From Deltaproteobacteria bacterium (GTDB taxonomy: Bacteria; Desulfobacterota; Syntrophobacteria; Syntrophobacterales; Syntrophobacteraceae): a stretch of 64,000 nt of DNA. The translations under genes and the position numbers were made by a program. Location: NCBI GenBank assembly GCA_012517315.1, contig JAAYVE010000046.1, positions 62,001 through 126,000 of the forward strand, given 5' to 3'. The first letter of the stretch is position 1, and every line of letters starts with the position of its first letter. The notes under the pieces were generated by a model, which was not told the origin of the DNA, ran no database searches, and worked only from the letters and a program-made list of their open reading frames with translations. Below, piece by piece: positions 20,065-39,603 of this stretch.

Positions 20065-20697
20065 TCATGTCACCTCATCGAGCGGCATTTGCCGGGGTCT
20101 AACCTGGGCTGGAGTCTTGTATCCATGCCTTTGAAGGATCCAGCATTGGTTGTACTGATCTCTGAAGGCCAGGAGGGTCGGCTCAAGAGCCTCAAAGCGA
20201 GTTGCACTTTTAGCAGCGTGCATCCCCATGCAATCCATGGAGCAGTGATCGACCGCAAAGAAGATGGCCACTTGGCCTTGCTCGGTCGTCCGGCAAGATG
20301 TCTGATCACAGACCCACATCCGGTTGACGCGCTCGGTGGTGACGGTCCCGTCGTGAGCCTTTCGTCCGGAGCGCTGTCGGATGCGGGGAGGGGCCAAAAG
20401 ATCGTGTCTTTACATGAGTCGCAGGACTCGTCTCCTGGAGGTGCGGATCCCCTTGAATCTCCATCTCACCCAGACGTTCCGGTAGCCCTCACCGTGAAAG
20501 GGCGATTCGCCGAGAACGGTGTGGATCTGTTCGACCATCTCCCCATCGGTGAGCGGGCCAACCGGTCCCCTCGGCCCGGACATCGGCTCAGGCCGGCACC
20601 GTTGAAAGTACAGAGCCGATCTCGGGATCTCCCACACTCGACAGACTCTGGCCAGGCTGTAACGTTTCCCGTTGGAGGGCGAGACGGCCTGGCTCAT
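20065..20697 (-). pseudogene. IS3-family OrfB: nonsense codon and internal deletion
   Basis: Reading leftward from 20697, the frame gives an HTH_21-like N-terminus (YSLARVCRVWEIPRSALYF, then GEGYRNVWVRWRFKGI and SRRRVLRLM), then an in-frame TAA at 20410-20412. The same frame continues with GRKAHDGTVTTERVNRMW, QGQVAIFFAVDHCSMDCMG and KSATRFEALEP. It then jumps to TLLAFRDQYNQCWILQRHGY and KTPAQVR. A complete OrfB has well over 100 residues between those last two parts, including the second Asp and the Glu of the DDE triad, so the catalytic core is gone. Both a point mutation and a deletion disable it. Confidence 0.8.
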
Positions 20698-21071
20698 TTC
20701 CTCGGTCTCTTGAGGGATAAAGGGCGATTCTGCTCGAGCCTCCTGATTTTCTCCCGAAGAAGCTCCGATTCCATGGTCGCCTTCCCGAGTTTTTCCCGAA
20801 GCCGCTTGATCTCATCCCTTTCAGGACCCTTCCTCTTCTTCAGGGCAGCTTGTCCCGCGGAGAGGAACTCGTCTCGCCACCGGGAGATCAGAGGGGCTGT
20901 AGTGCCCCACTCTCTTGAGAGCAGTTCAAGGTCTTCTCCCCGAAGCAATCTAAGGACGATTTGGCTCTTCAATCTGGCGGAAAACCTTTGGGGCTTCCGT
21001 GCCGTACTATCTCCGGCAAATCCGGCTGTTACCTCCGATGGCCCTCTGCTACCGGCATTGCCTTCATCCAT
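20694..21071 (-). CDS. IS3-family OrfA
   Basis: A 125-residue OrfA-like protein with an N-terminal helix-turn-helix (RFSARLKSQIVLRLLRGEDL, then LSREWGTTAPLISRWRDEFL) and a C-terminal leucine-zipper-like coil (IKRLREKLGKATMESELLRE). It appears intact. The ATG at the complement of 21069-21071 has AGGAGGT seven bases upstream; a GTG three codons earlier is less well placed. The end overlaps orfB by four bases, typical of IS3 elements. With orfB destroyed it can only bind ends or act as a repressor of related copies. Confidence 0.75.
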   Translation of the reverse strand: MDEGNAGSRGPSEVTAGFAGDSTARKPQRFSARLKSQIVLRLLRGEDLELLSREWGTTAPLISRWRDEFLSAGQAALKKRKGPERDEIKRLREKLGKATMESELLREKIRRLEQNRPLSLKRPRK

Positions 21072-21112
21072 TGTGGACACCTCCTGTGTGGTGTCTTTTA
21101 CCCCTTATCCAG

Positions 21113-23602: not shown

Positions 23603-24586
23603 ATGCAATGGCAAATGGCGTCGAGGGAGCAGTCCTGCCGCTGGAATAGTAAGGTGTCCTTTTTCCTGGTGCTCGTCATTGTTTTCCTGTGGGTGGGGGG
23701 GTGTGGTGAAAAGGAGGCCCCCGTCGAGGTGGATCTCACCCAGCGGGAGGACATCGGCTTCGAACAGGACCCCAACACGATCACTTACGCTTATCTTCCA
23801 CAGTACTTCCATCGCGTTGCTTTCGAGCGACACAATCCCATCATCGAGCACCTAAGAGGAGAGACGGGCCTTCCCATCCGGCAGGTTTTTCCCGACAGTT
23901 TCGACGATTTCATGAAGATGGTGGGGCAGGGGAAGATCGATGTCTTCTATTGCAACCCTTTCGTTTACGTTCGTGTCGCCGAGCGCTTCGGCAGCCAGGC
24001 CATCGCGCGCATCATCGAACTGGACGGCAGGGAGAGCTTTCGTGGCCAGGTGATCTGTCGTTCCGACAACAGGCAGATCCAGACCATCGAGGACTGCAGG
24101 GGAAAGCGTTGGGTCGCCGTGGATCCCTCTTCGGCCGGGGGGTATCTATACGCCCTGGGTCTTTTCTGGGATCACGGGATCCGCAAGGGAGACTTTGCGG
24201 AGATCGCTTTTGTGCCCGGGCCAGGCGGTCAGCAGGAGAAGGTGGTCTTTGCGGTGCTGTCGGGGCGCTATGACATCGGGTCCGTTCGTGAGGGAGCCTT
24301 GCAGCTTGTGGCGGACAAAGTGAACCTGAACGAGATCCGGATCATCGCCCACACTCCCTGGTATCCTGGGTGGATGTACGGGACCCGCCAAGGCCTCGAT
24401 GCCCGTATTGTCGGCTCCATCAGGGACGCGTTGCTCAAGCTGGACCAAGGGGATCCCCGATACAAGTCGATCTGCGATACGGCCCATTTCCTCCGGGTGA
24501 TTCCGGCCCGGGACAGCGATTTCGACCCCATCCGCGCGCTGGCCGTCAAAGTGGGAATCGACCTTAAGGGTGACAAGAGCCCATGA
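23603..24586 (+). CDS. PhnD-like periplasmic binding lipoprotein (sensor partner)
   Basis: A 327-residue protein of the phosphate/phosphite/phosphonate-binding PhnD family. A hydrophobic N-terminal segment ends in the lipobox-like LWVGGC, so the mature protein is probably an anchored lipoprotein with the Cys about 34 residues in. Family features: ITYAYLPQYFHRVAFERHNP, IDVFYCNPFVYVRVAERFG, a GKRWVAVDPSSAGGYLY segment and the RYDIGSVREGAL motif. No ABC permease or ATPase gene follows. Instead the stop overlaps the ATG of a histidine kinase (ATGA at 24583-24586). The protein therefore more likely feeds ligand information to that kinase than serves uptake. ATG 23603 and 23615 are both possible. 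The ligand is unknown. Confidence 0.8.
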   Translation: MQWQMASREQSCRWNSKVSFFLVLVIVFLWVGGCGEKEAPVEVDLTQREDIGFEQDPNTITYAYLPQYFHRVAFERHNPIIEHLRGETGLPIRQVFPDSFDDFMKMVGQGKIDVFYCNPFVYVRVAERFGSQAIARIIELDGRESFRGQVICRSDNRQIQTIEDCRGKRWVAVDPSSAGGYLYALGLFWDHGIRKGDFAEIAFVPGPGGQQEKVVFAVLSGRYDIGSVREGALQLVADKVNLNEIRIIAHTPWYPGWMYGTRQGLDARIVGSIRDALLKLDQGDPRYKSICDTAHFLRVIPARDSDFDPIRALAVKVGIDLKGDKSP

Positions 24587-26607
24587 GCATCAAGGTCAGC
24601 TTTCGAGCCAAGATTTCCCTGGCCATGATCGCCATTCTTCTCTTCCTAGGCGCATTGCTGGCTCTTATCGCCCAGGAGGTGGCTTCAGGTGCCCTCTATG
24701 ATGAGCACCGCAAACGGGGCGTCTCCATCGGTCTCAATGCGGCGGGGCGTGTGGCAGAACCTCTGCTGGCCATGGATTTCATCCGGATGAAGGACCTGGT
24801 GGATGAGATCCTGCGGACGAACGAGGACATCCAGTTCGCTTTCGTCCTGGGGCAAAATAACAAGCCCCTGGTCCACACCTTTTCTGGCGGCTTCCCGGTG
24901 AATCTCATCGGAGTCAACGACGTGTCGGGAGGCACAAGCCATAAGGTGCGTCTCCTGCGTATCCAGCAGGAACTGGTGTACGACTTCGCCGTGCCGGTCC
25001 TGGTGGGTAAGAACCGTCTGGGGACCGTCCGCATCGGGTTCTCACCCAAGCGAATCCAAAAGTCAGTAGAGCGTCTCATTTGGACGACCCTGCTCAGCAT
25101 CGGTGCGGCCATCGGTCTGGCGGCTCTCGTGGGGACCCTGCTGGCCCGCACGATTACCCGAAGGATCCAGCTTCTGCGGAAGTCCGCCGAAGAAATCGTC
25201 CGGGGGAACCTCAACATTCAGACCCTGCCGACTCCCCACCGTCAGTGCTGGGAGGTCATGGACTGTCGGAAAACCGGGTGCCCGGCATACGGGAACCTTG
25301 AACAACGCTGCTGGTACCTTGCGGGGACCCTTTGTCCCACTTGTGTAGCAGGGGAGTATGCGCAAAAAGTCAAAGCATGTCAGCGCTGCCAGGTATATCG
25401 CATGAATTCCGGAGATGAAATCCAGGACCTGGCTGAGTATTTTGACGTGATGGCCATGACCCTGCGCAGGCGGATGGAAGACCTGGAAAGGACCCAGCGT
25501 GACCTGCAGGACCAGCAGCAGATCCTGAGGAACATTTTTGATGTGACTCCCGACATGCTCTCCTTACAAGATCCCATGCTCCGCTACAGGGCCGTCAATC
25601 GGGCTTTCACCCAATTCTTCGATATCGAGGAGGGGGGAGTACCGGGGAAGACCGAGCTGGACATCCTCCCCAGGGAAATGGCTGCGGCCGAACACGAGGA
25701 GAATCTCATGGTTCTTGAAAAGGGGCGTCCCCTGGATGTGGAGCGGAAGTTCAGGGGAGTGCCGGGGGAACGCTGGTTTCACCTTTTGAAACGGCCGGTG
25801 ACGAATCCAGGCGGTGACGTGATCGGGCTTCTTTGCAGTGCGCGGGACATCACAGAATTCAAGACCCTTCAGGAACGCATGGTGCAATCCCAGAAAATGG
25901 AGTCCCTGGGCCAGTTGGCAGCCGGCGTTGCCCATGAACTCAACACCCCGCTGGGCATCATTCTTGGTTACACTCAGCTTCTCCTTCGCGATTTCGAACC
26001 CGGCTCCGACGAACACGATACCCTTCAGATCATGGAGAAGCACTGCCGCATTTGCAAGCGCATCGTTACGGACCTCCTGCGGTTTTCCAGAAACACGGAA
26101 ACCGACAAGCGCCCCCTGGACTTGAACGATCTGCTGGACCAGGTGCTCAAGGTGGTGGAGCATACCTTCAAGATGGAGCGCATCGTCCTTGAACGCTCCC
26201 TGGAGGAGGGGCTTCCGCCCATCTGCGCCGACGGGGAGAAACTGCAGCAGGTTTTCCTCAACCTCCTGAACAACGCCTACGACGCCATTGGTTCCGAAGG
26301 GAAGATCACGCTCACCACCCGCTATGAGCCCTCCTCAGGCGAAGTGGTGCTGTCCGTCAAGGATACCGGTTCGGGCATTCCCGAGGGTATTCGGCACCGG
26401 ATCTTCGACCCATTTTTCACGACCAAGGGGGTAGGCAAGGGCACGGGCCTGGGCTTGGCGGTCACTTTTGGCATTGTGAAGGATCACGGGGGTTCCATCG
26501 AAATGGAGAGCAAGACCTCGGAAGAAGCGGCCGGCGATCCCGAAAACCCTGAGGGCAGCCGGGGGACGACGTTCACTTTGCGTTTTCCCGCCTATCGTTC
26601 CCAGTGA
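24583..26607 (+). CDS. Membrane histidine kinase with HAMP, two-CW Cys domain and PAS
   Basis: A 674-residue sensor kinase. The order is: transmembrane helix at about 11-30; periplasmic domain 31-165; second transmembrane helix at about 168-188; HAMP from about 190; a cysteine-rich 'two-CW' domain at about 222-270 ([17 protein letters not shown], then [13 protein letters not shown] and CQRCQVY); PAS 312-425; HisKA with the phospho-accepting His451 ([11 protein letters not shown]); HATPase from about 545 ([24 protein letters not shown]). It should autophosphorylate and pass phosphate to the adjacent receiver. The Cys domain could bind a metal or sense redox state. It overlaps the PhnD-like gene by four bases and leads into the receiver gene, so sensor, kinase and regulator form one unit. 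Confidence 0.88.
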
Positions 26608-26649
26608 TGGGATTTGGGCAGCGATTTCACAGAAGGGGAGGAGTTTTCC

Positions 26650-27015
26650 ATGGCCAATATTCTTGTGCTTGACGACGAAGTGGATGCAGTGGTTCTCATC
26701 CGCAAGGTCCTGAGGAAGAAAGGGCATGAAGTGCATGCGTTCTCGGAAGAGGAGGAGGCGCTCAAGTTTGCCCGATCAAACCCGCTGGATCTCGCCATAC
26801 TGGATATGAAACTGAAAAAAATGAGCGGCATCCAGGTCCTGGAGGAGCTTCGCAGGGTCAATCCAGGGATATCGGCCATGATGTTGACGGGATATCCCAC
26901 CGTCGAGACGGCAAAGGAGGCGGTGAGACTCGGGGCTGCCCAGTATTGTGTCAAACCCATCGAAATCGATGAACTGGAGGAAAAGGTGGCCGAAGTCCTT
27001 GCTTCCAGGGGATGA
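26650..27015 (+). CDS. Single-domain response regulator
   Basis: A 121-residue CheY-like receiver with no output domain. The acidic pair DDE is near residues 8-10, the phospho-acceptor Asp is in LDLAILDMKLKKMSG, the conserved Thr in MMLTGYP and the Lys in YCVKPIE. ATG 26650 is chosen because GGGGAGGAG precedes it; the frame is open 36 bases further up. Its stop overlaps the ATG of the 1259-residue fusion protein (27012-27015), so translation is probably coupled. The regulator presumably acts by protein contact, most simply with that fusion protein. Confidence 0.88.
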   Translation: MANILVLDDEVDAVVLIRKVLRKKGHEVHAFSEEEEALKFARSNPLDLAILDMKLKKMSGIQVLEELRRVNPGISAMMLTGYPTVETAKEAVRLGAAQYCVKPIEIDELEEKVAEVLASRG

Positions 27016-30000
27016 GAGGATCCCTTATGGCTTTCTTTTCATTTCTCAAGTCACTTGCCTATCGGGTTTTCGCCCCTGCCTCGGGAGTCCGAAGGCGATA
27101 CGCGGCATTCAAGGAGTTGCTGGAACACGACCAGGTTTGCCATGCCCGCATGACACGGCTGGAGATGATTCATCACGACCGGCGGCCCGTGGACTTCTCC
27201 GCAGTGAAACGCAACTGTGAGGAGATGCTGCGGGCCCTGGGAAGGATGGTGGCTTTGCTGGAACTCATGGCCCCCGGTCGCTACCCCGGCCTCAGGGATT
27301 CCGTCAGGGCCATCGAAGATCGGATCGCCGAGCTTCTCCGCTTGAGAGAAGTCGAGACCGCGCCACCCTTTGTCCTCACGCTGGAGGAGGTGTTCTCATC
27401 CACGGACATGCTGGTGGGGGGAAAAGCGAGAAATCTGGGAGTGGTCCGGCGTGAACTGGGCCTGCCGGTGCCGAAGGGTTTCGTCATCACGACCAGGGCC
27501 TTTGAGCGCTTTGTTCAAGCCAACGGTCTGCGGCAAAAGATTGATGACGCCCTTTCCAATATGGATGGTCGTTCCGTCGTTTCCGTTGAGACTGCCTCCA
27601 AGGAAATCACCTCCTTGATCCTTCAGTCCCCCATGCCTTCCGACGTGGAAACAGCCATTGTGGAAGCCTATGACCGGCTCTTGGAGGGTGTGCCTTGCGC
27701 AGTGCGCAGCAGTGCCGCCGCGGAGGATTCCTCCATATCGTTCGCGGGCATTTACAAGTCCGTCCTGGGTGCCCGGAAGGATAGTATTTGCAGCGCATAC
27801 AAAGAGGTCGTCGCCAGCAAGTATTCGGCTTCCGCGCTTTCTTACCGGATCCACCACGGTCTTCTGGATGAGGAAACCCCCATGGCGGCACTGGTTCTCG
27901 GGATGGTGGACGCCCGGGCAAGCGGGATCATCTATACCGCCGACCCTCTGGAGGGGGCGGAGGACCGCATCGTTGTTTACGCGGTGAAAGGTCTTGGCGA
28001 GTCTTTGGTGGGGGGGGTCGCAGCCCCCGATGTCTTTGAGGTTTCCAAGGGGGACCCTGAAAACGTTGCTTCCGTATGCCGGCTGAGGAGTTCTGACAAC
28101 GTGTGTCACCCGAGGAAGGGGACTGCCGGGGATAATACACCACTCTTGTCCCAGGAAGAACCGCTTCCCGTGGGCGAGGAGGTGGCCATTCAACTGGCCA
28201 GGTGGGGCCTGGACCTCGAGTCCTTCTTCGGGTATCCCCTGGATGTGGAATGGTGCCAGGACCGGGGCGGGTCTCTATTTCTTCTCCAGGCCCGTCCCCT
28301 CGGGATCCAGAAGCCCCCGGAAGGGCTCTCCCGTGGCGATGAAGTCGATGTGGCGAATTCCGTCCTCTTCTCCGCAGGTGAGCGGGCATCGTCAGGGGTC
28401 GGCTGCGGGACCGTGTTTAAGGTTCTCAACCCCTCCCAACTGGATAAGGTTCCGCCGGGAAGCGTGCTCGTTGCTCCCACGACTTCACCCACCCTGGTCC
28501 AGGTCCTGGAACGGGTGAAAGCGGTGGTGACCGACACGGGCTCGGTTGCAGGTCACCTGGCATCAGTGGCCCGGGAATGGGGAATTCCCGCCCTTGTCAA
28601 CACGCACATCGCAACAGAGGTCTTGAACACTGGGGCAGTGGTCACCGTCGACGCCGACGGGCAGCGGGTCCTGGAAGGGGTTGCCGAGGCTCTTCTGAAG
28701 GCCCGGGAGAGTTCAGGACCAGCCGGGGAGAGGGAAGAAAGCCCTTTCCGCATGCGCCTGCGCCGAATCCTTGAGCACGTGTCGCGCCTCAGTCTCACCG
28801 ATCCCAAGGCACCGAATTTCGTTCCCGAGGCATGCAGAACCGTGCACGACGTGCTCCGCTTTGTTCATGAAAAGGCGGTTGCGGAGATGTTTTCCCTGGG
28901 GGAGGCCCCGGGGAGGCGTATGCGCGAGGCGAAGAGGCTTTCCTGCAACATCCCCCTGGTCCTTTACGCCGTGGATCTTGGAGACGGGTTTGCCTCCAGC
29001 GCGATCTTCCACAGGGAAATCGGCCCGGAGCAAATCACCAGCATACCTTTCCAGTTCCTATGGCAAGGCATGACCGAATGGCCCGAAGAATGGGACACGG
29101 GGCGGGTTCATGTGGACTGGGCCAACCTGGAACGCATGACGAGCGGAGAAGGGATCGTCAGTCTGGATTCCAAGCTTTTGGCGAGTTTCGCCCTGGTTTC
29201 CCGGGACTACCTGAACCTCAACGTGCGTTTCGGTTTCCATTTTACCGTGCTGGATACCCTGTGTTCGCGTGTGGACGCGGAGAACTACATCAGCATGCGT
29301 TTTGAAGGGGGAGGGGGGACCGAAGAAGGGCGTTCCCTGAGGGCCCATTTCATCCAAAAGATCCTGGAAAAACAAGGTTTTCAGGTTTTGGTGGAGGGGG
29401 ATTCCATCACGGCCTCCGTTGCGCGGATTCCCCTAAGGGATTGCCAGGATAAGCTGGAACTCATGGGGCGGCTCCTCTCCGTGACGCGGCTATTGGACAT
29501 GAGGCTCACCCGTGAAGAGCAGGTGGACGGGATGGTGGCCGATTTCGAGGCGCGGAGTTCCCAGTCCCGCTCCCATAGGAAGCGGTCCACAAGAGGTCCC
29601 GGAGGTGTGGACGATTCTACCGCAGTTGAGGAGGAACCCACCGGCTATGCCCTCACGTGGATCACACAACGCCTGGCCGTAGGGCATGCACCCACCTCTT
29701 ACGAGGATTTGGAGAGCATCAGGGAGCAGGGAATCGATGCCGTCGTCAACCTCTGCGGGGAGTACTGCGATCTCCACCAGATCGAAAAGGACTATGGTTT
29801 CGAGGTCCTCTACCTTCCCATACCCGACGACGAAGCGCCGGACATGGAAAAGGTTGAAAGGGCTCTGGCGTGGCTTGATGAGGCCGTTTACCTCGGAAAG
29901 CGGGTACTCATCCACTGCAGGCTGGGCATTGGCAGAACAGGCACGTTCATCCGTTCGTACCTGTTGCGGAGGGGGTTCGGGCCCAAGCTCACGGAAGAAA

Positions 30001-30791
30001 AGCTCCAGAAGATCCGCTCCCACCCGACAAGTTTTAACCAATGGAGATTCCTTAGAAAATATGGAAAGAAAGAGGGCCGCCTAACCATTCGGGAACCCTC
30101 CCTGGAAGGGGAGAATCCTGTGGATCTGGATCCCTTCTTTGCTGAATACGAAAATTTGTGCCGTGCTGCGGACCAGGCGTTTCAATCCATGGAAAATTCG
30201 GGACTCGTGATGGAAAGCTGTGGCAGAGACCATGATCTGTGTTGCATGGAGCCGTTCACCGTTCAATTGGTGGAGGCGGTCTATCTTTACCATCACATGA
30301 ACAGGGAGCTTCCGCGGGAGATGCGTCTTCGGGCCATCGAGCAGGCCAGGGCAATGGACAGGATCCTGCGTGCGCGAAAAGGGGTGGGGGAAGAAGTGGT
30401 GGTTGCCCCGAGCATCGCCCCTGGGGGGCAGTCGAGGTCGGTGGGAACAGGGGAGGCACCTTCAGAGGGATTCAAGTGTCCACTTAGTTTCGACGGCAAA
30501 TGCATTCTCTATGATCAACGGCCGATCCGCTGCAGAGCATTCGACCTGGCGCGTACACCCGTAGGAGGAAAGGAGGGGGAGGAAAAGGGCGAAGGGGGTC
30601 CGGAAGCGGTTTTTCCCATGGATCAGGCCAGAAAGGAACTCTACGAAATTTCCCGCAGGCTCTTTCTGGGCCTGAACGGCATGTTCCTCGAAGGTCGCAG
30701 CCTCCTCTTTTCCGTGCCTCACGTCGTTTCGGGGAGGTTCATCCAGGACTATTTCACGGTACTCGCCGGAATGGGCAGAGAGCAAGCCTGA
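27012..30791 (+). CDS. PEP-synthase-like phosphotransferase / Cys-phosphatase / YkgJ-like triple fusion
   Basis: A 1259-residue soluble protein with at least three recognisable parts. Residues 1-110 are helical. About 118-430 is a PPDK/PEP-synthase ATP-grasp domain (VGGKARNLG, VPCAVRSSAAAEDS, FLLQARPL). About 480-560 is the swivelling phosphohistidine domain, with His515 in TDTGSVAGHLASVAREWGIP. Residues 600-840 are not the expected PEP/pyruvate barrel and are unassigned. After a Ser/Arg linker, about 877-1020 is a dual-specificity-type phosphatase with the loop HCRLGIGRTG (Cys969, Arg975). About 1066-1180 resembles the YkgJ zinc/iron-chelating family (CGRDHDLCC, CPLSFDGKCILYDQRP, RCRAF). It could phosphorylate a target by way of His515 and remove phosphate with the phosphatase domain; the target is unknown. 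Its ATG overlaps the receiver stop; ATG 27027 is an alternative start. Confidence 0.8.
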   Translation: MRGSLMAFFSFLKSLAYRVFAPASGVRRRYAAFKELLEHDQVCHARMTRLEMIHHDRRPVDFSAVKRNCEEMLRALGRMVALLELMAPGRYPGLRDSVRAIEDRIAELLRLREVETAPPFVLTLEEVFSSTDMLVGGKARNLGVVRRELGLPVPKGFVITTRAFERFVQANGLRQKIDDALSNMDGRSVVSVETASKEITSLILQSPMPSDVETAIVEAYDRLLEGVPCAVRSSAAAEDSSISFAGIYKSVLGARKDSICSAYKEVVASKYSASALSYRIHHGLLDEETPMAALVLGMVDARASGIIYTADPLEGAEDRIVVYAVKGLGESLVGGVAAPDVFEVSKGDPENVASVCRLRSSDNVCHPRKGTAGDNTPLLSQEEPLPVGEEVAIQLARWGLDLESFFGYPLDVEWCQDRGGSLFLLQARPLGIQKPPEGLSRGDEVDVANSVLFSAGERASSGVGCGTVFKVLNPSQLDKVPPGSVLVAPTTSPTLVQVLERVKAVVTDTGSVAGHLASVAREWGIPALVNTHIATEVLNTGAVVTVDADGQRVLEGVAEALLKARESSGPAGEREESPFRMRLRRILEHVSRLSLTDPKAPNFVPEACRTVHDVLRFVHEKAVAEMFSLGEAPGRRMREAKRLSCNIPLVLYAVDLGDGFASSAIFHREIGPEQITSIPFQFLWQGMTEWPEEWDTGRVHVDWANLERMTSGEGIVSLDSKLLASFALVSRDYLNLNVRFGFHFTVLDTLCSRVDAENYISMRFEGGGGTEEGRSLRAHFIQKILEKQGFQVLVEGDSITASVARIPLRDCQDKLELMGRLLSVTRLLDMRLTREEQVDGMVADFEARSSQSRSHRKRSTRGPGGVDDSTAVEEEPTGYALTWITQRLAVGHAPTSYEDLESIREQGIDAVVNLCGEYCDLHQIEKDYGFEVLYLPIPDDEAPDMEKVERALAWLDEAVYLGKRVLIHCRLGIGRTGTFIRSYLLRRGFGPKLTEEKLQKIRSHPTSFNQWRFLRKYGKKEGRLTIREPSLEGENPVDLDPFFAEYENLCRAADQAFQSMENSGLVMESCGRDHDLCCMEPFTVQLVEAVYLYHHMNRELPREMRLRAIEQARAMDRILRARKGVGEEVVVAPSIAPGGQSRSVGTGEAPSEGFKCPLSFDGKCILYDQRPIRCRAFDLARTPVGGKEGEEKGEGGPEAVFPMDQARKELYEISRRLFLGLNGMFLEGRSLLFSVPHVVSGRFIQDYFTVLAGMGREQA

Positions 30792-30820: not shown

Positions 30821-31288
30821 CTACTCGCGGAAAGTGATCTCTACGGTGAAACGCCCCGAGGCGGTGGTGAACGGGATGGCGAGGCGGGGGCCGCTGTGGG
30901 GGTGGTTGATGCGATGGTTATTGCCGGCAACAATGGTGGGGATGCCCGCCTGGAGCACGATGGACTTTTCAGCAATCCGCCTGCGGGCGTCGCCGCAGAT
31001 GACATTGGTCAGTTCGCCGACGGCATCCTTCACATCGGTGTTGATTTCCGTTACCGGCTCCCCAAACAGATTGGAGACAATCGCCTTAATACAGGACTCT
31101 TCAAAAGAGAGGGCCATGCTTCCTTCCTCTGCCCCAGAAATGTCGATCACCGCAGAAATGTCTCCAAGGGCCCGATCGTCCGCTTTCAAGAAAGGTTTTC
31201 CCGGCTCAGAATCCACTCTCGCCATGGTCTTGATGACGTGTACGGCAGCGGCGAGGAAAGAATTGATGATCCTGACGTCAAAGGCCAT
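30821..31288 (-). CDS. cheX: CheX-like CheY-P phosphatase
   Basis: A 155-residue CheX/CheC-type protein. It begins FDVRIINSFLAAAVHVIKTM, carries the acidic ISAVIDISGAEEGSMALSFE region, and the catalytic E-x-x-N motif appears in VGELTNVICGDARRRI. The C-terminal strand has a conserved-looking PFTTASGRFTVEI. CheX removes phosphate from CheY-like receivers. The ATG is the complement of 31286-31288; the frame is open upstream for 26 codons without homology. It stands alone and converges on the phosphotransferase fusion. A target among the many receivers in this window is possible, but no chemotaxis genes are nearby. Confidence 0.85.
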   Translation of the reverse strand: MAFDVRIINSFLAAAVHVIKTMARVDSEPGKPFLKADDRALGDISAVIDISGAEEGSMALSFEESCIKAIVSNLFGEPVTEINTDVKDAVGELTNVICGDARRRIAEKSIVLQAGIPTIVAGNNHRINHPHSGPRLAIPFTTASGRFTVEITFRE

Positions 31289-31472
31289 GGGACATGGATC
31301 CTCTTGATTTCGATGAAAAAGTGGAGCCAAAACCATCTCGGGTGGCACGGTGAGTAAATACGCCACTTATCGATTCAAAGCAAGTCGTAACAAAAGCGTG
31401 GAAGCATTTCCCCGCGCCGTGGTGCGTCGCTCTCCCGGTCGATGGGCTTCTGATCAAAGAAAGATCCCGTTC

Positions 31473-35541: not shown

Positions 35542-36790
35542 ATGAATGAAATGGTTTTTCACAAAAGTGTGGTTCAAATCCTCTCCCATTTGAACGCAGC
35601 CATCACGAATCTGCGCCTGTACCTTCAGGTTCACCCCCTGGTGTCCAGGCATCTGGAAAAGGCGTACCAGGAACTGAGGGGGGCTTCTCCGATTCAGGGG
35701 AGTATTGACTCTCTTTCTGGTGGGTGACGAATTGGTTGTGGAAAACCGATCAATCCTGGGATCAGGCCAGTCTGTTGAAAAGTTCGTCAAAATACTCCGG
35801 GAAAAAGGAGTGGAAAGGATCACGTTCTCGCAGGAAGTGACCCCAGAGGAGTTGCAGGCGCTGGTTGGCGATCTTGCGTCCAGGGAAGGGGAGTCTGTCC
35901 GGGGCTGGCCCGGCATCACGCTGGGCCGGGTGCAGGTGAGGGTCGCCGTGGAAGGGGCTGGGGAGGGAATGAACTGCGAGTCAAAGGAATGCGAGGAGAT
36001 CCTGGACACATTGTCAGGTATGGATGAGAAGGAGATCGAACGCATTAAGGAACTTTACCTTCTGGCGGAAGGACGCAAGCAAATCAGTATTCATGGTGTG
36101 GACGATTCCGTCCGAAAACTCATCTCCGAAATCCGCCGAAATCTTAATCCCCTGAGCCTGCTGGCAACGGTGAAGTGCACCGATGAGTATACCTTCACAC
36201 ATGTGGTCAACGTTTGCATCCTGACGCTCATCCAGGCGGAGAAGCTCGGCTTCGGAGGCAGGCAACTCTATGACATTGGCATGGCGTCTCTCCTCCACGA
36301 CGTGGGCAAGACGTTCATACCCGAGGAAATCCTGAGCAAACCCGGAGCCCTCACATCCGATGAGCGTGCCCTCATCGAGACGCATCCCGTTAAAGGAGGT
36401 CGCTACCTCCTGGAAGTGGGTGGAATGCCGAAAGTCGCGGTTTTGGCGGCCATGGAACACCACCTGCGATTCGACGGGTCGGGATATCCCAAGCTCTCGC
36501 CCGGATGGAAGCCGCACATCGTTGCCCAGATGATCACCATAGCCGACGTTTTCGATGCCCTGAGGAGCAGGCGTCCATACAGCGCTCCCAAGCCCATGGA
36601 AGAAATCGTGAAGATTCTCAACAAGGAGAAGGGAACGACTTTCAACCCTTATCTCGTCCGGAATTTCCTGGAAATCATTGCTCCCACAACCGTCGATTCC
36701 CATGCCGTAGCAGAGGGAGACGTCAGGAGACCCGGCCTCGCCGGGACATGCGACGCAAACGTCGCTCCGACAGAAGAAGGCTCTCTCTGA
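35542..36790 (+). pseudogene. HD-GYP-domain protein split by a single-base frameshift
   Basis: Two frames join into one protein of about 415 residues. The N-terminal piece (from ATG 35542: VVQILSHLNAAITNLRLYL, VSRHLEKAYQEL) runs out of frame at a run of six G (35681-35686). Removing one G restores RGVLTLFLVGDELVVENRSI and the frame that ends at 36790. The C-terminal part is an HD-GYP domain: CTDEYTFTHVVNVC, LLHDVGKTFIPEEIL with the HD pair, and HHLRFDGSGYPKL with the GYP motif. HD-GYP proteins hydrolyse cyclic di-GMP (or cGAMP). If the frameshift is real, translation could start inside the second frame and give a truncated HD-GYP protein without its regulatory N-terminus. If it is an assembly error, the gene is intact. 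It follows the HEAT-repeat gene and shares its N-terminal domain. Confidence 0.75.
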
Positions 36791-37136
36791 GAGGATCTGC
36801 AATAAATCCACCTTTCTTCCCAACCTCGGAATCCCAGCTGCTTTTCAACGAATATAGGCCGCACCGGTTTGGCGCAAAGTGTCACGCCTCTTCCGCGTAC
36901 CGGCGACCCGCCGTCCTCCGCCTGAATCTCAAAGGACGTTGCACGGTAAAATACCCTTCCATGCTCTAGGTTGCGGTCTCTCTCGGGATGGGGCGGCAGC
37001 AGAAAAGCCCTTTTAGGTTCTAAGAAAAATTGACAATAGTGTGTGACTTGGTTAATGCCTGCGGAAATGTTGCCTCCTGTCCTCGGCGGATCGAGTGGGG
37101 CGCTGCGGCATCAACACGCACAGAAAGGACCGCGGT
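36791..37136. other. Intergenic, promoter region of the terC-like gene
   Basis: About 345 bases with no coding signs. A TTGACA-containing promoter candidate is listed separately. Confidence 0.45.
37030..37058 (+). promoter_or_regulatory. Candidate sigma-70-type promoter for the terC-like gene
   Basis: TTGACA at 37030-37035, then a 17-base spacer and TAATGC at 37053-37058 (weak -10; TTAATG overlaps). It lies about 80 bases before the ATG at 37137 in a region otherwise rich in A+T for this window. Confidence 0.35.
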
Positions 37137-37880
37137 ATGGAGTGGATGCTGAATCCAGAATCGTGGATCGCACTGGTGACGCTCACCGGACTGGAGATCG
37201 TTTTGGGCATCGACAACATCGTCTTCATTTCCATTTTGGTGGGGAAACTCCCCGTGCCCAAACAGACCAGGGCTCGGACGGTCGGCCTGGGGCTGGCCAT
37301 GATCAGCCGCATCTTGCTGCTTTTCTCCCTCACATGGATCATGCGATTGACTCAACCGCTTTTCACGATGCTCGGCAATGAGATCTCCGGAAGGGACCTG
37401 ATCCTCATCGCTGGGGGGCTTTTTCTCCTGGTGAAGGGCACCCTGGAAATCCACGAAAGGCTGGAAGGGGGTGAGGGGCACGCCCGGGAACCTGTCGCCG
37501 CGTCCTACGCCGGTGTCCTGATCCAGATCATGATCATCGATATTGTCTTTTCCCTCGATTCTGTCATCACCGCCATCGGGATGGCCAATCAGCTCGCCAT
37601 CATGGTGGCGGCCGTCGTGATCGCGGTCGTCTTCATGATGATTGCATCGGGGAGCATCAGTCATTTTGTGGAGAGACATCCCACGGTGAAAATATTGGCT
37701 CTCAGCTTTCTTCTGCTCATCGGGTTCGCCCTGATCGTAGACGGACTGGGCCGCCACATTCCCAAGGGTTATATCTATTTCGCCATGGGATTTTCCGTGT
37801 TCGTGGAAATGCTCAATCTCCGCATGCGACGTAAAGAGGCGTCACCGGTGAAGCTACACGGACCTCACCTGGAAGAGTAA
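37137..37880 (+). CDS. TerC-family integral membrane protein
   Basis: A 247-residue protein with about seven membrane helices and the TerC signature: GLEIVLGIDNIVFISIL near the N-terminus and a matching acidic motif IDIVFSLDSVITAIGMA in the second half. These acidic intramembrane residues are thought to bind divalent metal; TerC/Alx-family proteins export manganese and aid metal loading of secreted proteins. The C-terminus is short and cytosolic. ATG 37137 (MEWMLNPESWIALV) has AAAGGA upstream and is the usual family start. It is a single-gene unit. Confidence 0.88.
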   Translation: MEWMLNPESWIALVTLTGLEIVLGIDNIVFISILVGKLPVPKQTRARTVGLGLAMISRILLLFSLTWIMRLTQPLFTMLGNEISGRDLILIAGGLFLLVKGTLEIHERLEGGEGHAREPVAASYAGVLIQIMIIDIVFSLDSVITAIGMANQLAIMVAAVVIAVVFMMIASGSISHFVERHPTVKILALSFLLLIGFALIVDGLGRHIPKGYIYFAMGFSVFVEMLNLRMRRKEASPVKLHGPHLEE

Positions 37881-38021
37881 ACGCTACCGCGTTCGCCTGA
37901 GGGAACACCCGAAATGCGGCGGTATGGACCGCTGCAGCGCTCTCTTTCTTCAATCGCGAGGGGAAACGGAGGCGGCCTGAGGCGACCGAGGGCGTGATTC
38001 AACGGTGGGCAGTGCCGAATC

Positions 38022-38492
38022 TCAGGATCGCAGGGTTGCCGTCAATCGCAGGGGAAAAAGCAAAAGATCCAGGGCATCCAAGATGTCGCGGCACACCACG
38101 TCCCCGCTGAAAAGGGCTTCCGGCGATACGCCCTCACCCAGCACGACCGCAATGCCCAGGGCGGCTTCCTTGAGCATCAGTCGATCGTTCCTGCCGTTTC
38201 CCACGGCGACACAGTGCTCGGGCCCGAGGTTGCGCAGGTATTCCCCCTTGGCTTCGGCCTGGTTTTCCAGGGGGATGACGGTGACCTGGCAGGGGACTTG
38301 GGAAAGGGAGCGGCCCACCGTCCCAAACGTGTCGGCGGTGAGCACATGGATCTTCATCTGCTGGGAGAGGGTCTTGAGGCGTTGCTCCACACCCTTTACG
38401 AGTCGCCCGTCGAGGGCGATGGTTCCGTTGTAGTCCAGCACCAGGTGTTGAAAACTCAACTGCTTGAAACCGGGAATCGTGATCTCGATCAT
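38022..38492 (-). CDS. Small HAD-superfamily protein (soluble P-type-ATPase-like)
   Basis: A 156-residue protein with the HAD core. Motif I is VLDYNGTIALDG, where the second acidic residue of the usual DxDGT is Asn. Motif II appears near VLTADTFG, and motif III/IV as CVAVGNGRNDRLMLKEAALG. The set resembles the COG4087 group, whose sequences match the P domain of P-type ATPases. Phosphatase activity is uncertain given the Asn in motif I. The ATG is the complement of 38490-38492. It is isolated on the minus strand; no partner gene is adjacent. Confidence 0.75.
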   Translation of the reverse strand: MIEITIPGFKQLSFQHLVLDYNGTIALDGRLVKGVEQRLKTLSQQMKIHVLTADTFGTVGRSLSQVPCQVTVIPLENQAEAKGEYLRNLGPEHCVAVGNGRNDRLMLKEAALGIAVVLGEGVSPEALFSGDVVCRDILDALDLLLFPLRLTATLRS

Positions 38493-38817
38493 TTGAATAC
38501 CGGGTTGATTTATCAGCCTTTTTCCCGGAGGGAATCTTTTCGATTGGGAGTGCGTCTTCCTCGATCCCCAAATTACATTGAACCCTCGATGGGAAGCAAC
38601 CCCTTAACCGACCTTTCAATCAGTCGTCTGGCTTCTTTTCTCACAGAGTCGGAGAAACGGCGAGTTTTCTCCGGCACGGCAGATCCGGGTGAGGCTGACT
38701 CACTGAGGCGAAGGGGGGATAGAGGCGCTCGAATGTAGCGCCCGAAACATTTCTATGCCGAATGATCCAGGGAGAAATCCGTCAGGTGGAAGACCGGCTT
38801 GATCTCGGCCAGCGAAG
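38493..38817. other. No gene seen
   Basis: About 325 bases between the HAD gene and the ATPase activase gene, both on the minus strand. No hairpin with a T-run was found on either strand. Confidence 0.4.
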
Positions 38818-39603
38818 TCAATCCGTGCCCGTTGCGGTCCTGGAACCGTAAACGGCTGCGCCCAAAGCCCCCAGCATGTCAGGCTCTTGGGGAACGAGAA
38901 CAGGAGTGTTCAATTGTTCCTCCAGCAACTGTTTCACGCAAGCGTTGTGGGCGACTCCCCCTGCAAAAAGGACGGGCTGCTCCACTCCAACCCGGCGGAG
39001 CATGGAGAGAGTCCTTTGGACAATGGCCATGTGCAGTCCCATGGCGATGTTTTCCGGTCTCTCCCCCCTTGCCATGAGTGAGGTAGCCTCGCTTTCGGCA
39101 AACACCGTGCACATGCTGCTGATCTGGATGCGACGGTCAGCTTGCAGGGCGAACACGCCGAAGGATTCGATGGGCACCTGGAGCGCCGTTGCCATGAATT
39201 CGAGGAACTTGCCGGTTCCGGCAGCACAGCGGTCATTCATTTCGAACCGGGAGACCTTGCCGTGAGGATCCAAGGCGATGGCTTTGGTATCCTGGCCTCC
39301 AATATCCAACACCGTGCGAACGCCTGGGAAAAGGCGGGTCGCGCCCAGGGCGTAGCCCTGGATTTCGGTGATGGTGAGAATGTTGAGATTGCTGAAAGCC
39401 TCGGCAAAAAGCTTGCGTCCATAGCCTGTCGCCACGATCTGATCCGCCCGGACGCCCTCCATGATCTTTCTGCACTGCCCGACGGGGTCGAAAGTGGTGG
39501 CTGTTTTCACCTGATGGACTCTGCTCCCGTTTTCCATCACCACCAATTCGATGGATCTCGATCCGATGTCAATGCCCGCTGTGCACATCGCACTGGAACC
39601 CAT
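38818..39603 (-). CDS. ATPase activase of the HgdC/BadG family (reductase of the double-cubane protein)
   Basis: A 261-residue ASKHA-fold ATPase of the 2-hydroxyacyl-CoA dehydratase activator family. It has TAGIDIGSRSIELV (phosphate 1), TVLDIGGQDTKAIAL (phosphate 2), the cluster-binding Cys in NDRCAAGTGKFLE and a second in ISSMCTVFAESEA, and ALFAGG-like VLFAGGVAHN (adenosine). A homodimer holds one [4Fe-4S] cluster and uses ATP hydrolysis to push a low-potential electron to its partner. The partner is encoded just upstream (39757-41031, same strand). The start is uncertain between ATG at 39603 and ATG at 39588 (MCTAGIDIG). Confidence 0.88.
   Translation of the reverse strand: MGSSAMCTAGIDIGSRSIELVVMENGSRVHQVKTATTFDPVGQCRKIMEGVRADQIVATGYGRKLFAEAFSNLNILTITEIQGYALGATRLFPGVRTVLDIGGQDTKAIALDPHGKVSRFEMNDRCAAGTGKFLEFMATALQVPIESFGVFALQADRRIQISSMCTVFAESEATSLMARGERPENIAMGLHMAIVQRTLSMLRRVGVEQPVLFAGGVAHNACVKQLLEEQLNTPVLVPQEPDMLGALGAAVYGSRTATGTD

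Follow-up and report, generated by a model that had tools for sequence, protein, structure and literature searches.

Results and Discussion

Four adjacent genes in a 64,000-nucleotide stretch of a Syntrophobacteraceae genome (the window) almost certainly form an orthologue of the "nitrate cluster" of Desulfovibrio, with its PPDK-like protein (half A) and its phosphatase (half B) fused into one giant protein. Comparison across genomes separates a core, consisting of the receiver, half A, and half B, from an optional front end made up of a lipoprotein and a histidine kinase. As a plausible though tentative reading, we propose that two opposed activities govern a TauE-type anion permease: an ATP-driven phosphohistidine kinase under the control of the receiver, and a phosphatase that counteracts it. 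We infer this mechanism from families, catalytic residues, orthology, co-occurrence, and permease neighbourhood, all computed here, and from mutant effects published for Desulfovibrio. The cluster type has already been described, and what is new here is the gene fusion and the unlinked permease.

Gene layout in the window

The features of the cassette are given in Table 1. All four open reading frames were found where the initial annotation had placed them, on one strand and with the domain types it had assigned. Its description of a receiver without an output domain agrees with Pfam, which gives Response_reg only, as does its reading of the giant as a combination of ATP-grasp, phosphohistidine, and Cys-phosphatase parts; His515 and Cys969 also lie at the positions it gave. 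That list of parts was nevertheless incomplete, as it missed two further domains, which we call MID and the Cys-rich tail.

Table 1. Coordinates of the cassette genes and of the parts of the giant protein (window positions)
Feature	Coordinates	Strand	Size and basis
PhnD/PtxB-family periplasmic lipoprotein, candidate oxyanion sensor	23603..24586	+	327 aa; PF12974 (Phosphonate-bd) 6e-52; pocket motifs kept
Membrane histidine kinase: HAMP, 8-Cys insert, PAS, HisKA, HATPase	24583..26607	+	674 aa; Pfam
Single-domain receiver, without output domain	26650..27015	+	121 aa; PF00072 only
Giant, fusion of half A (PPDK-like) and half B (phosphatase)	27012..30791, start probably 27027	+	1259 aa; Pfam, homologues
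Half A catalytic part: ATP-grasp 134-432 and phosphohistidine domain 481-549 (His515)	27411..28658	+	Pfam, structure comparison
MID domain, conserved, likely acceptor-binding	28773..29597	+	no Pfam or PDB sequence match
DSP-type Cys phosphatase, HCRLGIGRTG loop (Cys969)	29640..30068	+	Pfam, homologue alignment, structure match
Cys-rich tail, CxxCxxCC/YkgJ-like	30219..30560	+	homologue comparison

Of the two four-base overlaps claimed initially, the ATGA at 24583-24586 is present in the sequence, and the gap ahead of the receiver ATG is indeed 42 bases. The other overlap, at 27012-27015, depends on the choice of start codon and is doubtful, because the closest homologue of the giant (L008, 68% identical) has CTG at the 27012 start and its first ATG corresponds to window position 27027. 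The junction between receiver and giant is probably an 11-base gap, a spacing that is still tight. Promoter and terminator scans returned no more than chance expectation. Chance grouping of the four genes is excluded, because the same genes recur jointly in other genera.

Two features flank the cassette. A gene for a CheX-type receiver phosphatase (30821-31366, reverse strand) faces the giant and is also found by the cassette in the genus-mate G001 (L061); we rejected it as a part of the system, since it adjoins the cassette only in these two genomes. Upstream, two short open reading frames (20410-21080, reverse strand) resemble, by eye, the remnants of an IS3-type transposase pair.

Domains and conserved residues

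Half A matches the Pfam families PPDK_N (2e-75) and PEP-utilizers (9e-19), and in structure comparison its best entries are PEP synthase, PPDK, and rifampin phosphotransferase, with Z scores of 24-36 over residues 117-583. A PDB profile search likewise supports the ATP-grasp and phosphohistidine assignments. R232, E238, H515, and R521 are intact in 29 of 29 cassette half A proteins. MID, a domain of about 270 residues (approximately 588-860), separates the phosphohistidine domain from the phosphatase, and no significant sequence match to it was found in Pfam or PDB. It sits at the place that the substrate barrel takes in PEP synthase. Across the 74 A-type proteins, nine of its residues (H612, D613, R616, H619, E620, H743, R777, D797, and D829) are each kept in every protein or in all but one, and the same holds within the 29 cassette proteins. 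The structure comparison of the giant was dominated by residues 118-575 and barely covered MID, so we make no claim of a new fold.

In half B, Pfam places a DSP-type phosphatase at about residues 883-1018. The phosphatase loop HCX5R[ST] is present at residues 968-977, and its Cys and Arg are invariant in seven homologues. Structure comparison matched the phosphatase fold in a predicted model of half B, which is of modest quality (mean pLDDT 64, seven sequences) and in which we leave the Cys-rich tail uninterpreted. When the tail was compared with the CxxCxxCC family PF03692, one of the seven homologues gave a weak match (E = 0.0022) and the window protein none; the tail is absent from the short half B genes of three genomes. 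Searching the literature for the phosphatase name "Swiss Army Knife" brought up nothing relevant.

Some paralogues of half A depart from this pattern. In two of them (L025:8683-11664 and L026:3157-6030), Gln replaces the catalytic His, and the L026 copy adjoins an intact A copy, so that a pseudoenzyme pair is possible. A subgroup of about 1050 aa (L082:6377-9589 and L083:5371-8520) is extended at the C terminus by a region whose Pfam matches are weak and lectin-like.

On the sensory side, the pocket-side motif of the lipoprotein has Cys in the window protein and Ser, Ala, or Thr in the other cassette proteins. The lipoprotein also matches the TtrS model NF040750 weakly (4e-6), far under the family cut-off. 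Our best guess for its ligand is a periplasmic oxyanion, perhaps thiosulfate or another sulfur oxyanion, because of its PhnD-family relatives and this weak TtrS match. The kinase carries eight Cys, including two CW pairs, in residues 222-269 between HAMP and PAS, and these Cys are invariant in 17 homologues; the insert is possibly metal- or redox-sensing. The receiver adjoins half A or half B in nearly all loci that contain it.

A conserved core with an optional front end

Most genomes encode half A (ATP-grasp, His domain, and MID; about 860 aa) and half B (phosphatase and Cys tail; about 390 aa) in two genes, which as a rule adjoin each other. The full-length fusion was found in the window genome, in G001 (the same locus as L008), and in G003. 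The single giant of the initial annotation is therefore a local variant rather than the norm, and it demonstrates that the kinase and phosphatase can form one polypeptide, which suggests that they share a substrate. In the tree of half A, the cassette proteins form one clade of 29 rows with support 100, which includes those of Nitratidesulfovibrio (L131) and Pseudodesulfovibrio (L132). Outside this clade are 45 A-type paralogues, all without half B; the window genome has two A-type paralogues (G000:C14:26579-29068 and 36751-39216).

We quantified co-occurrence in 60 genomes, namely the window genome and its relatives. Half B was present in 21 of them. Of those 21 genomes, 20 also carried half A and 16 an orthologue of the receiver, and no receiver orthologue occurred elsewhere. 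Orthologues of the lipoprotein and the kinase were found in exactly the same 10 genomes, again all within the 21; the other 11 have neither anywhere in the genome. Counted as both, first only, second only, and neither, the genome totals were 20/0/1/39 for A and B, 16/0/5/39 for receiver and B, and 10/0/0/50 for lipoprotein and kinase, and the genus totals were 13/0/0/16, 12/0/1/16, and 7/0/0/22, respectively. It is on these counts that the division into core and front end rests.

The genes thus behave as a functional unit, as initially supposed, with half A accompanying half B in 13 of 13 genera and all 12 receiver-bearing genera falling inside the half B set. The unit is not the fixed four-gene cassette that had been described, since the sensor pair is optional. 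The initial annotation had held that a giant found without the sensors and with stable partners of its own would speak against its model, and this is partly what we observe: the core keeps company with the receiver and in many cases with a TauE/SafE permease. Gene order also varies, from half A - lipoprotein - kinase - receiver - half B (L069 and L075) to lipoprotein - kinase - receiver - half B with half A elsewhere (L090).

Orthology to the Desulfovibrio nitrate cluster

In Nitratidesulfovibrio (L131), Pseudodesulfovibrio (L132), and a Desulfovibrionales MAG (L134), the genes lie on one strand in the order TauE - lipoprotein - kinase - receiver - PPDK/MID - phosphatase. This is the order of the nitrate cluster, DVU0251-0245 / Dde_0597-0605, in Table 3 of Korte et al. 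2014 (PMC4001038). The assignment of the window cassette to this cluster is drawn from the single half A clade and the matching gene order. Half A of the cassette type is present in eight of eight examined genomes of the D. vulgaris genus, and the link to D. vulgaris Hildenborough rests on its genus, gene order, and published annotations.

The published genetics bear directly on function. Addition of 100 mM nitrate made no difference to growth when DVU0251 (permease), 0250, 0247 (receiver), or 0246 (PPDK-like) carried an insertion, whereas insertion in or deletion of DVU0245 (phosphatase) left nitrate sensitivity in place (PMC4001038). Since the genes from permease to phosphatase are co-directional (L131) and loss of 0245 gives no resistance, the 0246 effect is not explained by polarity: it could hit only 0245, whose loss leaves D. 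vulgaris sensitive. This argues that half A is needed for nitrate entry via the permease. The nitrate fitness of phosphatase mutants differs between species, at +2.08 in D. alaskensis versus −6.04 in D. vulgaris (PMC4001038). In D. vulgaris the kinase gene DVU0248 is a pseudogene, yet binding-protein and receiver mutants still show the phenotype (PMC4001038), so a simple linear chain is incomplete there. The authors invoked a leaky thiosulfate transporter (PMC4001038), and a later paper again reads "putative thiosulfate transporters" (PMC9723548).

A TauE/SafE permease as the candidate target

We identified recurrent neighbours by unbiased clustering of the open reading frames that flank cassette and paralogue loci. 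One membrane protein recurs by the cassette loci and another by the paralogue loci, and both are TauE/SafE permeases, of different subfamilies. The permease is present in about 14 cassette neighbourhoods, and in the independent paralogue clade the receiver, half A, and the other TauE subfamily are paired in 16 of 30 loci. The same clustering recovered no other enzyme gene recurring beside the cassette and no constant DNA-binding partner. The target that the initial annotation had left as unknown can thereby be narrowed, through the Desulfovibrio orthologue genetics (PMC4001038) and the gene neighbourhood, to a candidate TauE/SafE permease.

No TauE gene lies in the cassette neighbourhood of the window, and several other cassette loci also have no adjacent permease. 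The window genome encodes eight TauE proteins, of which one (G000:C31:42500-43381) scores 148 bits against the cassette-TauE profile and the next 55. This protein carries the charged loop common to cassette-linked TauE proteins, a loop that is predicted to be cytoplasmic because of the family topology. A clear cassette-type permease was not found in two half B genomes, G001 and G016, both fragmented assemblies; conversely, of the 39 genomes without the cassette, 15 had a cassette-type permease at the threshold used.

The contig that carries the cassette also has a second receiver-kinase-permease system, outside the window at G000:C14:17000-48000 (L080 and L081) and approximately 46-59 kb upstream. 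It comprises two A-type paralogues, receivers, kinases, and two TauE/SafE permeases.

Proposed mechanism and alternatives

We propose that a periplasmic oxyanion would be bound by the lipoprotein and that the 8-Cys kinase would relay the signal onward. Through protein contact, the receiver may then act on the giant, a step suggested by their adjacency and by the receiver's missing output domain. Half A would move phosphate from ATP to His515 and, via MID, to the target, and half B would remove it again. The target may be the cassette-linked type of TauE/SafE permease, perhaps at its conserved loop, or a partner of that permease. Half A would turn anion entry on and half B off, so that loss of half A would leave the permease closed and the cell nitrate-resistant, as in Desulfovibrio. 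Several observations count against this proposal: the missing permease beside the window cassette, the two half B genomes in which no clear cassette-type permease was found, the cassette-type permeases in genomes that lack the cassette, the differing phosphatase mutants of the two Desulfovibrio species, and the DVU0248 pseudogene. The fullest form of this proposal is possible but less secure: the receiver's output would be a fusion of an ATP-driven phosphohistidine kinase with a PTP-type phosphatase, phosphorylation of the permease by this protein would be reversible, MID would be the acceptor domain, and this would be the mechanism that makes sulfate reducers sensitive to nitrate.

In the leading alternative, half A phosphorylates the imported anion itself. 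Here half A would act on a small molecule, activating or trapping an anion or organosulfonate imported by TauE, half B would hydrolyse the product, and the receiver would set the balance. Apart from Enzyme I of the PTS, every functionally characterised close relative of half A acts on small molecules, and MID occupies the substrate-barrel position with an invariant polar cluster; the permease neighbourhood would fit as well. However, loss of DVU0246 alone gives nitrate resistance like that of permease loss (PMC4001038), which a step after import would explain only if import were coupled to phosphorylation. As no other enzyme genes recur by the cassette either, we regard this reading as somewhat unlikely.

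That halves A and B act in signalling, on another regulator or on the receiver and kinase themselves, with the permease affected through gene expression, appears doubtful. The best match of the receiver is of the NtrC/ZraR kind, and kinases and receivers abound at the paralogue loci, some of which have large multi-domain receivers, but the absence of a constant DNA-binding partner, of an output domain in the cassette receiver, and of linkage between the permease and a conserved regulator gene all count against it. The original chain of four fixed genes, running from ligand to giant with a target unrelated to transport, has the tight spacing of four genes on one strand in its favour and is improbable in view of the 11 of 21 sensor-free core genomes, the permease neighbourhood, and the nitrate phenotype.

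If phosphorylation of the permease is correct, reversible TauE/SafE phosphorylation would give bacteria a hitherto undescribed means of gating the entry of anions, and MID would be an undescribed acceptor domain. Oil-field operators use nitrate to stop the production of sulfide, and sulfate reducers become nitrate-resistant when the nitrate cluster is mutated. Our comparison splits the conserved core from the optional sensor, singles out a permease family with a common, putatively cytoplasmic loop as the candidate target, and provides residues for mutation. The second, larger family of paralogues has the same receiver-kinase-permease layout, which suggests a general control principle.

Comparison with known systems

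The front end resembles AioXSR and ArrXSR (PMC5908839), in which a transporter-less PhnD-family periplasmic protein works with a histidine kinase and a receiver to sense an oxyanion. The receivers there have DNA-binding output domains, whereas the cassette receiver is a single domain, and the cassette lipoproteins do not share a conserved Cys at the pocket-side motif. Half A shares ATP-grasp and a swivelling phosphohistidine domain with a conserved His with PEP synthase, PPDK, and rifampin phosphotransferase. Identity as PEP synthase or PPDK was rejected because the C-terminal PEP/pyruvate-binding barrel is missing from the giant (no Pfam match), with MID following the His domain instead. Identity as rifampin phosphotransferase was rejected because the His domain comes directly after ATP-grasp, and the NCBIfam score is 211 against a cut-off of 999. 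The tetrathionate and thiosulfate kinases TtrS and ThsS use a PhnD-like sensor for sulfur oxyanions, which is fused to the kinase there and is a separate lipoprotein here.

The closest counterpart is the nitrate cluster, which matches in its five protein types and their order and has a PPDK-like protein of the same clade and orthologous kinase, receiver, binding protein, and phosphatase. The window cassette differs from it in that the PPDK-like protein and phosphatase are fused, the nearest TauE homologue lies on another contig rather than adjacent, and the host belongs outside Desulfovibrionales.
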